NCBI RefSeq assembly: GCF_009601765.2
Contig: NZ_CP045699.1
Coordinates: 1,302,001 to 1,366,000 of the forward strand
Origin: Vibrio algicola
Lineage (GTDB): Bacteria > Pseudomonadota > Gammaproteobacteria > Enterobacterales > Vibrionaceae
Direction of reading: 5' to 3'
DNA: 64,000 bases
In this document: one piece after another, positions 31,063-36,107 of the stretch
Layout of the letters: each line of letters begins with the position of its first letter
Position numbering within the stretch: position 1 is the first letter of the stretch
The notes under the pieces: generated by a model
The model's database searches: none
The model's input: only the letters and a program-made list of their open reading frames with translations
What the model was told of the DNA's origin: nothing
Program-made: the position numbers and the translations under genes

Positions 31063-31270
31063 GTTAACTCAAAAGGTAATGTTAAAAATGCATGATAAAC
31101 CAGAGTAAGTCATTGTATACATACCTAGATCAAAATAATTCTACTGAATGGTGATAAAAAATGAGTAATAAATTTCATCTTAAATATCAATTTATTTGTT
31201 TATAAACTTGAACTTTATGAGCAAAAAACTAACTATACCTTTAGTTCCTTTAAATAAATTGAAGATTGTT

Positions 31271-31720
31271 ATGTTTAAATCTATAAAAACTCTATTTAAT
31301 CAACTTGTTGAAGAATCTGCTTACGCTTCAAACACCACAGGTAACAGTGAATTGGCGATGGCGGCGTTGTTATGCCAAGTCTCTCAAGCCGATCATTTGG
31401 TCGATGAACAAGAAATTATCGCCCAAACTAATATGTTAATGAAGTTAACTGGCAGCAGCGAAAGTGAAGTCCAAGAACTGCTAAGCCAAGCCAGCATTCG
31501 CTCTGAGCATTCCGCTTCGGTCTATGATTTTACCGACCAACTGCGAGATTTAGATCAATCACAACGCTTTGAATTAATCCAAGCCATGTGGCAAGTGGCT
31601 TATGCTGATGGTTACCTTGACCCGATAGAAGAAGCGGTGATCCGACGCGTTGCTGAACTGCTTTACGTCAACCATAATGAGTTTATCCGCGCTAAATTAT
31701 CGGTTGCTCCCTCACCTTAA
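31271..31720 (+). CDS. TerB-like / DUF533-type tellurite-resistance domain protein
   Basis: 149 residues from the ATG at 31271 (MFKSIKTLFNQL). The all-helical TerB fold has paired acidic motifs SQADHLVDEQEI and AYADGYLDPIEEAVIRRVA, expected to bind metal. Stand-alone TerB proteins are common in vibrios and have no firm function; the name does not imply tellurite resistance here. An upstream in-frame ATG at 31196 exists but gives an unusual hydrophobic leader. Its stop, CCTTAAC, lies just outside the end of the decayed integron array. Confidence 0.78.
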   Translation: MFKSIKTLFNQLVEESAYASNTTGNSELAMAALLCQVSQADHLVDEQEIIAQTNMLMKLTGSSESEVQELLSQASIRSEHSASVYDFTDQLRDLDQSQRFELIQAMWQVAYADGYLDPIEEAVIRRVAELLYVNHNEFIRAKLSVAPSP

Positions 31721-31732
31721 CTTGACGTGATT

Positions 31733-31792
31733 TGAATATGAAAAAATAAAAAGAGGTGTCGGCTGCGCGACACCTATCCTTATTTGTTATAT
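31733..31792 (-). repeat. Decayed attC-like site / terminator at the end of cassette 2
   Basis: On the minus strand R'' ATATAAC (31792-31786) overlaps the stop codon of the cassette gene and is exactly complementary to GTTATAT at that cassette's other boundary. After an AAA spacer comes TAAGGATAGGTGTCG, which pairs with CGACACCTCTTTTTA over 15 positions with one mismatch and two wobbles, around a CGCAG loop. The expected right-hand R' is degraded (TTTCATAT), and the T-rich right arm makes the site look like an intrinsic terminator. Confidence 0.55.
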
Positions 31793-32506
31793 TTTTTTGA
31801 TCACGTAATTCTCAGCTTGCTTATATGTTTTTTGAAGGTCTTTTGGTAAGAAACTAAGAAATGTATTTTTTAGCAAACTTTTCGCTATGTCTAATCCTTG
31901 GGTATCACTAAAAGTCCAAGCATCCGCGGATTCAGTTGTTGCACAATAGCGTATAAGTTTTTCAAACAAAGATCGAACAGATGAAAATGCTTCATCTTTT
32001 TTCATTTGTTCAAGATTACAGACAATAGCATTGTTTATATTTAAATTACCGTTATCTACTGATGGACTCACATCTAATAAAAGAAGCTCATTTTCCCCAC
32101 TATATTTCCAATTTGTTTTATCTTCAAATTCGTTAATCACGGAAACAAAGGCATTGTCACTATACAACCAATCAGTGCCATCAATTTTTGTCACAGGTTC
32201 TAGATCTGGATATTTCCCATGTGGCCAGTATGCACCGTAACCGCAACAAAAAATATTTATAGCCTTACCTGAGCGATGATGCAAATAACTTAAAGATTCA
32301 AGAATCTCTTTTTTACAAAACTCAGTTCTAGGGTTACAAAATAGTACCGCAACTAAGCTGTGTTTTTGGGTTTTCTCATTAATACTCGTAGCAAGCCTTT
32401 CTGATGCGGGTTCAACTGAATCAAAGAACATCATCCTTTTAGGCATTGAGGTCAAATCTCTATTTACAGCTTCTACAATGTTTAAGTAACTTATTGCATC
32501 GATCAT
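31787..32506 (-). CDS. Integron cassette 2 gene, protein of unknown function
   Basis: 239 residues, predicted cytoplasmic, with no signal peptide or membrane helix. I do not recognise the family. A central alternating strand-helix part (SLVAVLFCNP, then a helix EILESLSYLHH, then INIFCCGYGAYW, then NELLLLDVS) suggests an alpha/beta fold; a C-terminal helical part (LFEKLIRYCATTESADAW, LLKNTFLSFLPKDLQKTYK) follows. Cysteines are present but not in a clear metal pattern. The gene fills a cassette bounded by GTTATAT at 32531-32525 and ATATAAC at 31792-31786, and its stop codon lies inside R''. Codon use is AT-rich relative to neighbours. An effector or defence role is possible only by analogy with other integron cassettes. 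Confidence 0.75.
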   Translation of the reverse strand: MIDAISYLNIVEAVNRDLTSMPKRMMFFDSVEPASERLATSINEKTQKHSLVAVLFCNPRTEFCKKEILESLSYLHHRSGKAINIFCCGYGAYWPHGKYPDLEPVTKIDGTDWLYSDNAFVSVINEFEDKTNWKYSGENELLLLDVSPSVDNGNLNINNAIVCNLEQMKKDEAFSSVRSLFEKLIRYCATTESADAWTFSDTQGLDIAKSLLKNTFLSFLPKDLQKTYKQAENYVIKKI

Positions 32507-32524
32507 TCAATTCAACCTCGAAAA

Positions 32525-32624
32525 ATATAACGCTTTGCTAAGCGGCAATAAAATAGCTGGCTAAAATGAGCGAGGAACGAGCAAAAGCCAGCTGTTTTTT
32601 GTCCGTTTAAGCAACTTGTTAGCT
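32525..32624 (-). repeat. attC recombination site of integron cassette 1
   Basis: Minus strand: R'' AGCTAAC, spacer AAG, L'' TTGCTTAAACGG; then a variable part with AGCTGGCT/AGCCAGCT inner stem; then L' CCGCTTAGCAA, spacer AGC, R' GTTATAT. L'' pairs with L' with one extra base in L'' (the extrahelical-base feature of attC sites) and the spacers do not pair. R'' contains the stop codon TAA of the cassette gene, as is common in integron cassettes. At about 100 bases it is within the attC size range. Confidence 0.88.
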
Positions 32625-33536
32625 AGCTTTTCTCTCTGCTAGTTGCCACTTTATTATTTCTTGAGCTTTAATAAAACTCTTGCCATGCCACTTCTCATAG
32701 TTTTCCGCTATTGGGTAACCATGATTTATATCTGTTAAATCATCCCACCAAGGATCTTCCGAAAAGCCATTATCTAAATGCGAGCCCGGAAAAACATTAC
32801 CATTTAAGAGAGCTGAAAACTCTTTTTTATCTAATGTTAATCCCCAGCATTTAGTGTGCAGGTGTAGCTTATCTCTCAGTTCTTTAACTAGCTTATAAAA
32901 ACTATAAAGTTGACGTTGGCCTCCTGCTCCAACTTCATCACTTATATGCCACGTTCTATCAAAAATAACGTACTTCCACTTAGTTAGTTTTAATAAAATG
33001 AATGCTGCTGCTGTATCTGTATTATCCCTAATAAAATATATTCCCTCTGGGGTTAATTCAGTTATTTCTGATAAGTAATCCATTGGATCACTGTGTGAAC
33101 GAAAGTTGTTGGAATATGGAGAACTCTTCCCTTCAATTAACCACTGTTTGTTTACACCAAAAGTATTTGAATAGTGCTCGATAAAATCAAACGTAGGCTC
33201 TTCTTGACCAGTAAATACATTTTCAAGTTCACTAATTTTGTGAAGCTTCATAATCTGAGCTAATTGAGGAATGGTAAACTTAGAATACTCTCGGCCTTCG
33301 TTCATAAGCTCTAACGTTTCTTTAAATCTCTTGGCGACTTTTTCCACCTCGGTGTCTTCTTTTATTTCTTTTACCTGAGGAGGGCTTTGAGATGGAATAG
33401 TTGAAACATCAGAAGAGTCGCTCTTTTTGTCTTGGGTCTTACTTTTAAATAAAGTGGACAATATAAATGTGGCTATAACCACACCTACTCCAGAAAATAA
33501 CCACTCTTTGTTCTCAATAATATAATCTAGCATCAA
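32619..33536 (-). CDS. Integron cassette 1 gene, membrane-anchored protein with a possible HTH-like segment
   Basis: 305 residues, start ATG preceded by AAAGGAGTATTG. An N-terminal membrane helix (WLFSGVGVVIATFILSTLF, residues 13-31) is followed by a Ser/Lys-rich linker, then a helical segment at about 75-145 (FTIPQLAQIMKLHKISELE ... NTFGVNKQWLIEGK) that resembles an XRE-type helix-turn-helix repressor domain such as those ending in 'WL..G'. The C-terminal part has ILLKLTKWKYVIFDRTWH and GGQRQLYSFYKLVKELRDKL. I do not recognise the C-terminal domain. First cassette next to the attI side of the relic integron; bounded by GTTAGCT/AGCTAAC. A sensor or repressor anchored to the membrane is conceivable, but this is inference. 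Confidence 0.78.
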   Translation of the reverse strand: MMLDYIIENKEWLFSGVGVVIATFILSTLFKSKTQDKKSDSSDVSTIPSQSPPQVKEIKEDTEVEKVAKRFKETLELMNEGREYSKFTIPQLAQIMKLHKISELENVFTGQEEPTFDFIEHYSNTFGVNKQWLIEGKSSPYSNNFRSHSDPMDYLSEITELTPEGIYFIRDNTDTAAAFILLKLTKWKYVIFDRTWHISDEVGAGGQRQLYSFYKLVKELRDKLHLHTKCWGLTLDKKEFSALLNGNVFPGSHLDNGFSEDPWWDDLTDINHGYPIAENYEKWHGKSFIKAQEIIKWQLAERKAS

Positions 33537-33683
33537 TACTCCTTTGGCTAGCTAACAGTGTATTAGCAAGAAACACGGATAAACCCGAAGATTATTTCAA
33601 CACGTTCACTGCTAATCAATTCATTGATCATCATAAGATACTCTAATGATGAATTTTTTACAGCATTTAGCCGATTTTATGCG

Positions 33684-33824
33684 ATGGAGAAAGCGAGAAC
33701 TGGGTTTAACAAGCCAATTGTAACAATCCCAAACTTAAGGTTATTACATACTTTAATTTTAAATCAGTGAGTTAGATTAAAATCACAATACTGAACCGTT
33801 CTTTTTTGTTCTCGCTTTCTCCAT
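33684..33824. repeat. 17-bp perfect inverted repeat flanking 107 bases
   Basis: ATGGAGAAAGCGAGAAC at 33684-33700 and its exact complement GTTCTCGCTTTCTCCAT at 33808-33824. The enclosed segment is AT-rich and codes for nothing visible. It could be a small MITE or the remnant of an insertion inside the attI region. Confidence 0.75.
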
Positions 33825-33857
33825 TTTAATGGCAGTTTGGTCAAAACACCATTATAA

Positions 33858-33873
33858 CTGTATATAAACACAG
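33858..33873. promoter_or_regulatory. LexA (SOS) box ahead of the intI pseudogene
   Basis: CTGTATATAAACACAG fits CTGT-N8-ACAG exactly and is flanked by AA and TT, extending the palindrome. It lies 15 bases upstream of the intI start, where SOS control of integrases is known from other integrons. Confidence 0.87.
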
Positions 33874-33888
33874 TTAAGAGGTTGTATA

Positions 33889-34407
33889 ATGTCTTCACCA
33901 TTTATTGAGTCTATTCGACAACAAATTAAAGTGCGCCATTACAGCTTAAAAACGGAGAAATCCTATCTATTTTGGATTAGACAATTCATTCGTTTTAACA
34001 AAATGAAACCCCCTAAAAACACCGAGACATGTCAAATTCTCACATTGAAACTTTTCTTTCTTACTTAGCAAACGAGAGGAAAGTATCCAGTGCGACACAA
34101 AACCAAGCATTATGTGCCATCATTTTTATGTATCGACACGTTCTAAAAGTTGAGACACCGGATTTAAGCTATTAATTTACAAAGAAACCGAAGCGAATAC
34201 CTACCGTATTAACTCATCAAGAAGCCAATGTAGTTTTAAGCCATCTTAATGGGCAAAACTGGTTAATATGCGCCCTTTTGTATGGCTGTGGGCTCAGAAT
34301 CAAGAACGATTCAAGAGCTCTTAGGTCACAGCGATGTAAGAACCACGGAATTATATACACATATCATTGGAAGTCAGTTTTGCTTCAGAAAAGGCCCTTT
34401 AGATTAA
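33889..34407 (+). pseudogene. Integron integrase (IntI) pseudogene
   Basis: ATG at 33889 after AAGAGG. The first frame gives MSSPFIESIRQQIKVRHYSL, KTEKSYLFWIRQFIRFNK and so on for 59 codons, typical of the IntI core-binding domain, then stops at TAG (34066). The reading continues in another frame (IETFLSYLANERKVSSATQN, QALCAIIFMYRHV), is cut by TAA at 34173, resumes (KKPKRIPTVLTHQEANVVL ... LLYGCGLR), then jumps at about 34298-34302 to RTIQELLGHSDVRTTELYTH before ending at 34407. About 150 catalytic-domain codons, including the HxLRH segment, are deleted. A frameshift, a nonsense codon and a deletion make it non-functional. Confidence 0.9.
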
Positions 34408-34682
34408 TACCCTGACTCATAGCTAATACTACTGTTTTAATATGCAGCCTTTGATTATTATCGCTGCAAATATCGTCCTTATTTACGCCGATCGGGCATT
34501 AATTTATTGATTCACCTTGCCTAGTTAAGGCTTATTGTTGGATACTTACTTATCTTCGTGGGTTGATTTTTTAATGACATCAACCATGATATTGATTACA
34601 ACACGACACAATGCGGATAAGGCCTAATACCCCATGGTTCATAAGGCGTTAGAAAGAAATTCATTCCAAACGGGTGACATCA
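34408..34682. other. Intergenic region between intI pseudogene and sbcB
   Basis: About 275 bases with no gene. I find no convincing attC remnant; GGCGTTAG near 34645-34652 is only a partial R' look-alike. It presumably carries the sbcB promoter. Confidence 0.4.
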
Positions 34683-36107
34683 ATGCAAAACAATGAGCAA
34701 CCAACTTTTTTCTTCTTCGATTATGAAACATGGGGCGTGAGTCCGGCTAAAGACAGACCTAGCCAATTTGCTGGGGTGCGCACCGATGCCGATTTCAATA
34801 TTATTGGCGAGCCTTTGGTGATTTACTGCAAGCCGCCTGCCGATTACCTACCTAATCCAGAAGCGGCATTAGTGACTGGAATTAAACCGCAACTCACCGT
34901 GCAAAAAGGACTGCCTGAGCCTGAATTCATTCGCCTTATCCATGAACAATTCGCTCAGCCCAATACCACGTCATTAGGCTATAACAATGTGCGTTTTGAC
35001 GATGAAGTCACCCGCTACACTCTCTATCGTAATTTCTACGATCCGTATGCATGGTCATGGCAAAACGGCAATTCGCGTTGGGATTTATTAGATGTGATGC
35101 GGACTTGTTACGCGCTGCGCCCAGATGGCATCAATTGGCCAGAAAACGACGATGGACTGCCAAGTTTTAAACTCGATCGACTGTCGGTTGCCAACGGTAT
35201 CGAACACAGTAATGCTCATGATGCGATGGCGGATGTGATCGCCACCATCGAACTGGCGAAAAAATTAAAAGCTGCGCAACCTAAGCTATTCAATTACCTG
35301 CTCAATATGCGCCATAAAAACAAATTAAAAGCACAAATTGATATTGTGAACATGACGCCCTTAATGCATGTCTCTGGCATGTTTGGTGTGCAGCGTTCTA
35401 ATACCAGTTGGATTGTGCCAATGGCGTGGCACCCAACTAACGCTAATGCGGTGATTGTGGTCGATCTGGCTAAAGATCCTAGCCCATTACTGGAATTAGA
35501 CGCCGAACAGCTGCAAAAACGTTTATATACCAAGCGAGATGATTTAGCGCCCGATGAACTGCCGGTTCCGATAAAACTGGTGCATCTCAATAAGTGCCCA
35601 ATCCTAGCGCCTGCAAAAACCTTAACCGCAGAAAATGCCGCCAACATAGGGATCGATCGCGCCCAGTGCTTGGCTAATTTGGCCATATTAAAAGCCAATC
35701 CTGAGATCCGCGAAAAATTAATCGGTTTGTACAGTATTGAGCGTGAATATCCGCAAGATGATAATGTGGATACCCAGCTTTATTCAGGCTTTTTCTCACC
35801 TGCCGATAAATCAACAATGGATATTATCCGTGAAACAAAACCGGAGAATCTAGCCGGTTTAGAGCTTTCGGTTAAAGACTCCCGGATCGCCCCCTTATTA
35901 TTCCGTTACCGCGCTCGAAATTACCCTGCGACACTCAATGAGCAAGAACAAGACCAATGGCGCGCACATTGCCGAGAATACTTTGAAGCTAACCTTGAAG
36001 ATTACCTCCTAAATCTTGAGAATCTTGCACACGAACATGAAAGTGATAGCGCGAAAATGGACGTTCTGAAAGCGGTGTATCAATATGTTGAATCGATCGC
36101 TTCTTAA
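34683..36107 (+). CDS. sbcB: Exodeoxyribonuclease I
   Basis: 474 residues from the ATG at 34683, which has GGGTG at a suitable distance; a GTG three codons earlier is the alternative. The DEDDh exonuclease motif appears as FFFFDYETWG (Asp and Glu) near the start, then YNNVRFDDEVTRY, and the His/Asp of AHDAMADVIAT. The C-terminal SH3-like and helical domains of ExoI follow (FSPADKSTMDIIRETKPEN). It digests single-stranded DNA 3' to 5' in recombination and repair. Length matches E. coli SbcB (475). It is the first intact gene right of the relic integron. Confidence 0.94.
   Translation: MQNNEQPTFFFFDYETWGVSPAKDRPSQFAGVRTDADFNIIGEPLVIYCKPPADYLPNPEAALVTGIKPQLTVQKGLPEPEFIRLIHEQFAQPNTTSLGYNNVRFDDEVTRYTLYRNFYDPYAWSWQNGNSRWDLLDVMRTCYALRPDGINWPENDDGLPSFKLDRLSVANGIEHSNAHDAMADVIATIELAKKLKAAQPKLFNYLLNMRHKNKLKAQIDIVNMTPLMHVSGMFGVQRSNTSWIVPMAWHPTNANAVIVVDLAKDPSPLLELDAEQLQKRLYTKRDDLAPDELPVPIKLVHLNKCPILAPAKTLTAENAANIGIDRAQCLANLAILKANPEIREKLIGLYSIEREYPQDDNVDTQLYSGFFSPADKSTMDIIRETKPENLAGLELSVKDSRIAPLLFRYRARNYPATLNEQEQDQWRAHCREYFEANLEDYLLNLENLAHEHESDSAKMDVLKAVYQYVESIAS

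Follow-up and report, generated by a model that had tools for sequence, protein, structure and literature searches.

The gap between the genes terB and sbcB on contig C1 of a Vibrio algicola genome holds a small chromosomal integron, in which a broken integron integrase gene (intI) and two gene cassettes are read away from each other, with a cassette attachment site (attI), a LexA box, and a candidate promoter hexamer between them (Table 1). The genome (G000; other genomes likewise carry G numbers, and individual loci L numbers) amounts to 3.5 Mb in three contigs, C1 (2.5 Mb), C2, and C3, and the window is the whole 64-kb stretch that was analyzed, C1 1302001-1366000. The element lies in the chromosome, unlike the mobile classes 1-5, which are carried by transposons or plasmids; two cassettes fall short of the long array of a superintegron; and the intI pseudogene sets the locus apart from a cluster of attC sites lacking an integrase gene nearby (CALIN). 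A first-pass annotation made from the window had recognized a decayed chromosomal integron with two cassettes and a broken integrase, including the plus-strand pseudogene, the LexA box at its promoter, the attC of cassette 1, and the attI-side junction, all of which stand. As grounds for abandoning that description it named an attC model that fails together with fragments that fit another recombinase better, and the results below went the other way on both counts.

Table 1. Features of the terB-sbcB integron and its flanks (positions within the window)
Feature	Position	Strand	Remarks
terB, flanking gene	31196..31720	+	PF05099
Hairpin end of IS91-type element, fused to R''	31754..31785	-	Same end joined to R'' in other arrays
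R'' half-site (ATATAAC) of cassette 2 attC	31786..31792	-	Complement of cassette 2 start, by eye
Cassette 2 gene, 239 aa	31787..32506	-	Homologues in Pseudoalteromonas and G219
attC of cassette 1	32525..32624	-	Model R1, 112.7 bits, E 1.7e-26
Cassette 1 gene, 304-305 aa	32619..33533	-	N-terminal hydrophobic-looking segment, helix-turn-helix-like region, uncharacterised C-terminal part
Conserved attI block	33549..33726	-	Recurs at seven places in G000; core TTTCTTGCTAATACACTGTTA at 33553-33573
Inner arm of inverted repeat	33684..33700		Partner 33808-33824; like arms in two sister copies
Outer arm of inverted repeat	33808..33824		Partner 33684-33700; like arms in two sister copies
TATAAT hexamer reading towards cassettes, candidate -10 of cassette promoter (Pc)	33851..33856	-	Surrounding region kept at 13 of 25 sites
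LexA box	33858..33873		CTGTATATAAACACAG
intI pseudogene	33889..34407	+	TIGR02249 (integron integrase) pieces; tblastn with intact G225 IntI; blastp of pieces
sbcB (exonuclease I), flanking gene	34674..36107	+	PF08411, PF00929

The intI pseudogene carries frameshifts and stops and has lost about 130 codons between positions ~137 and ~268 of the TIGR02249 model (curated cut-off 265 bits), which its pieces match at 1-46, 26-137, and 234-312 with 96, 39.6, and 37.7 bits. Such matches alone cannot decide the identity of an integrase, because the model also picks up other tyrosine recombinases, in 14 of 14 control genomes and, for a recombinase linked to an IS91-type element, even at 162.6 bits. When three pieces (the C-terminal one not among them) were searched separately, the top match of each was the intact IntI of G225, which is probably V. 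litoralis, with 82%, 91%, and 74% identity (79, 94, and 70 bits), whereas the same pieces gave at most 20 bits against seven other recombinases, two of them IS91-linked. XerC/XerD, an IS91-linked recombinase, or another tyrosine recombinase was thus rejected, and judged by these far better matches the pseudogene is that of an integron integrase. The intact G225 IntI (396.5 bits with TIGR02249) adjoins the attI at the mog locus of that genome, and a tree of 27 rows places it in a group of eight, supported at 98/93, together with six IntIs from other families of the order and one other from the genus (G016). The remaining eleven IntIs of the genus, here called the IntIA type, fall elsewhere in the tree. 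No integrase above the TIGR02249 cut-off was found anywhere in G000, so the cassettes are probably frozen in place now, as the first-pass annotation had proposed.

Evidence for the cassettes comes from an attC covariance model (R1) and from the junctions themselves. The model was built from 13 attCs, none taken from G000, that adjoin different genes on plasmids of Aliivibrio, Pseudoalteromonas, Vibrio, and Paraglaciecola and in G030 and G014; one attC of the model type adjoins an annotated integron integrase, on a plasmid of Pseudoalteromonas sp. HL-AS1 (L188). The high score of the window attC is no blind test, because most of the model attCs were originally picked up by their similarity to it. 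It is the sole attC place in the window, a further match of 30.9 bits being the opposite strand of the same place. Independently of the model, GTTAGCTAG at the window attI junction recurs over 9 nt as its reverse complement, CTAGCTAAC, at the end of the 305-aa open reading frame, so that the junction and cassette 1 close on each other as a cassette demands. Alignment of copies and closure together place the cassette joint at G|TT, at an attI that adjoins intI. Cassette 2 starts with GTTATATTT, and because the R'' half-site that matches this start, AAATATAAC, is present, it is a cassette. The first-pass annotation had bounded it by the far-end ATATAAC, which is a genuine R''; the remainder of that attC is missing. 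The second boundary is thus an attC broken by the end of an element of IS91 type, the hairpin of which is fused to R''.

Neither the attI block nor its platform is confined to the window. The block, ~175 bp long, occurs whole or in part at seven places in G000, namely, the window, C2 447k, C1 1217k, C2 142k, C2 860k, C1 565k, and, as a partial copy, C2 689k. Its 21-base core is exact at six of these and has three mismatches at the seventh, and a reversed-pattern control gave zero occurrences in G000. The copy at C2 447 kb belongs to a second platform, adjoining mog (NF006932, molybdopterin adenylyltransferase), with an intI that is damaged differently from that of the window. The two share 99% identity across 177 bp of attI and 92% across ~510 bp that span attI, the leader, and the beginning of intI, so the window platform looks like a copy of the one at the mog locus. 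In a scan of G000 with the attC model (150 of 1721 candidates scored, E up to 0.01), there were 12 matches: nine strong ones (at least 68 bits), two opposite-strand echoes, and one weak match on C3. Each of the nine strong attCs has an attI copy upstream of it on its own strand; they are spread over five sites and make up nine of the ten attC places found. The sister sites 1217k and 860k each have several attCs and no trace of intI, and 142k has a single attC.

In a survey of 227 genomes of the genus, with three candidates scored per genome, the block was found in eight. A fuller search of these eight returned 27 matches, and 25 were aligned after exclusion of two short ones (61 and 30 bp). 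The block ends in TGTTA at 17 of the 25 sites, and the sequences beyond are unrelated. Closure, counted where the junction 8-mer of a site reappears in reverse complement no more than 25 nt from the end of the first gene downstream, was seen at 11 of 19 sites (six sites without a readable junction excluded), including five of six within G000, compared with 1 of 330 in a swapped control. Six sites, the one in the window and five at the mog locus, have an intact or remnant intI in the 2.3 kb upstream of them; 18 sites have no intI trace over that distance, and at the remaining one (G198_C43) the upstream match, at 27% identity, is another recombinase. The mog locus, on C2 in G000, is the platform of this type most widely shared among species. 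Besides its intI-adjoining mog attI, G225 has five more matches to the block or its upstream part, one of 61 bp, and G094, G198, and G219 hold intact IntIs, none of which adjoins a copy of this block. The left ends of the copies vary, with small intergenic repeats upstream.

The terB-sbcB gap itself is occupied in two relatives, G014 and G057, whose sites are 84% identical over the 2.5-kb flank up to the junction. Their cassettes differ, with genes of 131, 160, and 116 aa in G014 and of 478 aa in G057. The comparison with sister species that the first-pass annotation had proposed recovered an attI with other cassettes at the same place, and no intI at either site. In V. hibernica and V. rumoiensis the gap is ~0.1 kb and empty. 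By sbcB identity, in a comparison that may leave out the species itself, the nearest named relatives are Vibrio sp. S17_S38 and V. hibernica (92%), followed by Vibrio sp. CK2-1, V. litoralis, and V. rumoiensis (79-81%). No tRNA was found as an insertion target, and no clear target duplication was seen in the gap.

The promoter region also recurs. The stretch that contains the TATAAT hexamer, TATACAGTTATAAT, is present at 13 of the 25 aligned sites, comprising ten of the 19 intI-less ones and three that have intI. It lies 287-299 nt before the junction, the intervening leader being much less conserved. A LexA-like box is found at 12 of the 25 sites by a relaxed pattern and at 10 by a strict one. 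That the TATAAT region is kept at sites without intI suggests that it serves the cassettes.

A second attI lineage shows a comparable arrangement. Copies of the IntIA-type attI precede cassettes without intI in G219, G199, G094, G014, and G178, and their conservation with the intI-adjoining attIs of G219, G094/G199, and G198 ends at AAGCGTTA or TTGTTA (in the G219, G199, G094, and G014 copies). All attCs found at L314, L316, L317, and L318 lie downstream of the attI copy, and L321 has one downstream. Closure was seen at seven of the 11 sites tested, one of these adjoining intI, against 0 of 108 when junctions were swapped. Searched across the genus, the G219 attI had matches in 15 of 227 genomes. 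G219 and G178 contain three copies each, one of which adjoins intI in G219 and a piece of intI in G178, and the other 13 genomes have shorter matches.

We consider it likely that the window holds one docking site of a distributed integron, the integrase of which worked in trans before it decayed. In this Vibrio clade a platform of intI, LexA-boxed promoter region, and attI is seated at the mog locus, and attI copies, often with the promoter region and without intI, occupy several other places on both large contigs. The integrase of the mog locus could then have recombined cassettes in trans into these scattered attIs, giving each a small array. In this species an intI-bearing platform also occupies the terB-sbcB gap; both intI copies would then have decayed and the arrays frozen. 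The attI copies, their junctions, the closure of cassettes, the placement of the attCs, the lack of intI at most sites, and the intact relative are seen in the sequences, and action in trans, the sequence of events, and the function of Pc are inferred. A trans-acting integrase seems the best explanation because cassettes have been captured at attIs without an adjoining intI.

Several observations weigh against this interpretation. Whole arrays might have been copied with their attI after capture beside intI. Closure is lacking at eight of the 19 readable junctions and at four of the 11 sites of the second lineage, and four of the 25 aligned sites are cut by one foreign end, at CACT. Two attC-like places in G000 lack an attI neighbor: the weak match on C3 (31.8 bits), which is not near an attI copy, and a 32-bp piece of an attC end (G000:C1:762915-762946, L095:5916-5947), which is not near any found copy. 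At L315 (G199 C2), three weaker attCs lie upstream of the IntIA-type attI, so that this copy does not head its array. G014 and G057 are today without a match above the IntI cut-off. Common ancestry of the window site with theirs is unsure, because V. hibernica, the nearer relative by sbcB, has no element there. Against a service of the promoter region to the cassettes, nine of the 19 sites without intI are also without the TATAAT region, a promoter scan of one sister copy found no promoter, and the Pc of V. cholerae is not under SOS control (PMC3948777).

A rival account is ordinary decay, in which every locus would once have had a complete integron (intI, attI, and cassettes) and deletion would later have removed intI from most of them. 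In its favor, three relatives (G014, G057, and G219) keep short 3' intI remnants beside the mog-locus attI, both G000 intI copies have large deletions, and the nine intI-less copies that diverge earlier are compatible with deletion too. Yet we regard ordinary decay as unlikely, given the 18 sites with no trace of intI within 2.3 kb upstream and ten intI-less copies, at six or more locations as judged by their flanks, that keep the same TATAAT-to-junction stretch of 287-299 nt, which independent deletions are unlikely to produce.

Another route to scattered arrays would be carriage of a promoter-attI-cassette unit by the IS91-type element, the cassettes moving along with no need for action in trans. 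The hairpin (~32 bp) that follows R'' in the window also does so at 447k, 1217k, and 689k in G000, in G225, G219, and G199 loci, and on plasmids of Photobacterium. In G219 (L181) it continues into a pair of genes, one for an IS91 transposase (NF033538, 359.9 bits against a cut-off of 125) and one for a tyrosine recombinase, and a related pair is present on P. damselae pdp3. The shared end and the variable left ends of the copies speak for carriage; however, the end was not found at the G000 142k and 860k sites, G014 and G057 have different cassettes at one shared site, and the end also follows R'' in the Photobacterium plasmids and in the IntIA array of G219, so the element may simply be one that targets attC. 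We hold this explanation to be quite improbable. The first-pass reading of a single sedentary Vibrio integron shrunk to two cassettes fits every feature inside the window and is hardly tenable in view of the seven attI places, another platform on C2, and an IntI that does not group with most IntIs of the genus.

If the distributed integron with a trans-acting integrase is the right interpretation, a wider and more tentative one may follow, to which we would give somewhat less than an even chance: a single integrase could serve many promoter-attI docking sites across a genome, a LexA-boxed cassette promoter could stand at many of them, and the docking unit itself could spread. DNA damage could then release the integrase and simultaneously switch on small arrays at several sites, and many arrays now filed as CALINs would be genuine docking sites with an unrecognized attI rather than ruins. 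That attI copies of two lineages precede cassettes without intI in one Vibrio clade offers a testable origin for CALINs at fixed chromosomal places; newly caught genes would then have several first positions per cell instead of one.

The arrangement differs from known systems in instructive ways. The standard integron has a single attI, next to its intI, and it has been proposed that intI-less arrays are degraded integrons. Like the V. cholerae superintegron, the window has an intI divergent from the array, a LexA box before intI, an attI, and cassettes with attC; in contrast to it, the window has two cassettes, a TATAAT directly beside the LexA box that reads toward them, and an IntI of another group, in a genome with several attIs, most without intI. 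The scattered intI-less arrays resemble CALINs, and sites with at least two attCs are expected to be filed as such by IntegronFinder 2, whereas arrays here begin with their own attI, often with a promoter region, and so are read as docking sites and not only as leftovers; further, some have a single attC, under the tool's default of two. IntegronFinder 2 does not detect attI outside class 1, attI being poorly described beyond that class, so the tool does not seek an attI ahead of such arrays (PMC9024848). Insertion at attG (Loot et al. 2024, as mentioned in PMC12444791 and PMC12901181) also places cassettes outside the main array; there, the target is a loose consensus, whereas here it is a homologous attI copy of ~175 bp. 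The Delta-attI gene cassettes of class 1 and 2 integrons (PMC12901181) likewise have attI sequence away from its usual place, although in them an attI piece replaces the attC behind a gene, whereas here attI units head separate arrays. Xanthomonas CALINs have been reported at conserved loci away from ilvD (PMC12444791) and are similar in being intI-less arrays at conserved chromosomal positions; the accessible part of that paper mentions no attI for them. No report of natural multi-attI genomes was found in the literature searched, which had most subscription papers outside its reach.

The cassette genes themselves gave few clues to function. Pfam and PADLOC offered weak hints for both, and NCBIfam gave no match for either. 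In the cassette 1 protein the helix-turn-helix-like region scores slightly under the Pfam cut-off, and there is a weak PADLOC candidate match; in a search of solved structures, cassette 1 had one weak match (E 0.003) and cassette 2 had no match. Predicted structure models are too poor for a fold search, with mean pLDDT of 46.9 and 38.1 for the two proteins, and a role in anti-phage defence would be a guess. A cassette 1 homologue, 56% identical, is carried by V. parahaemolyticus pVPTW011 (L041), where it lies within a run of small same-strand genes that resembles a cassette array. Relatives of the cassette 2 protein occur in Pseudoalteromonas (66% identity) and in G219 (59%), where the gene is the first cassette at the mog-locus attI. 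Against the G219 homologue, dN is 0.34 and dS 2.73 (the other two of three gene comparisons being saturated), and the cassette 2 gene looks to be under purifying selection.

Other observations concern the ends of the arrays and copies. The piece at 31754-31792 was rejected as a complete short attC, the same piece being, in longer sequences, the end of the IS91-type element. Its hairpin is joined to the R'' (TAAC) of attCs in many arrays, as in L181:8153-10110 and L045:1867-4045, and the same junction is found at L317, L314, L173, L175, L192, L092, and L009. Four attI copies, L126 (G014 C2:578k), L127, L128, and L129 (G225), are cut after CACT or CACTG by a shared end, TATGTAGACTCCCTCATG or ATGTAGACTCCCTCATG, perhaps that of an insertion sequence that targets attI. 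The attC-like piece at C1:762915 precedes a gene resembling a TPR protein, and for the ppsA-speA site, speA was not found adjoining ppsA in relatives. An Rfam scan of the window at the gathering threshold gave no match. An identification of the attI block as a known RNA was dropped, the sole match near a copy falling outside the block. That match is a TwoAYGGAY RNA (48.8 bits, cut-off 43) at L094:7075-7236, on the plus strand of G000 C2, just upstream of the 860k attI unit and on the opposite strand from it; similar repeats were seen by eye upstream of the 142k and 565k units. Further intI remnants lie at L182 (G199 C25), L323 (G178), L035/L099 (G011), and L009, and several internally deleted remnants (both G000 copies and those of G011 and G199) rejoin near model positions 268-280.

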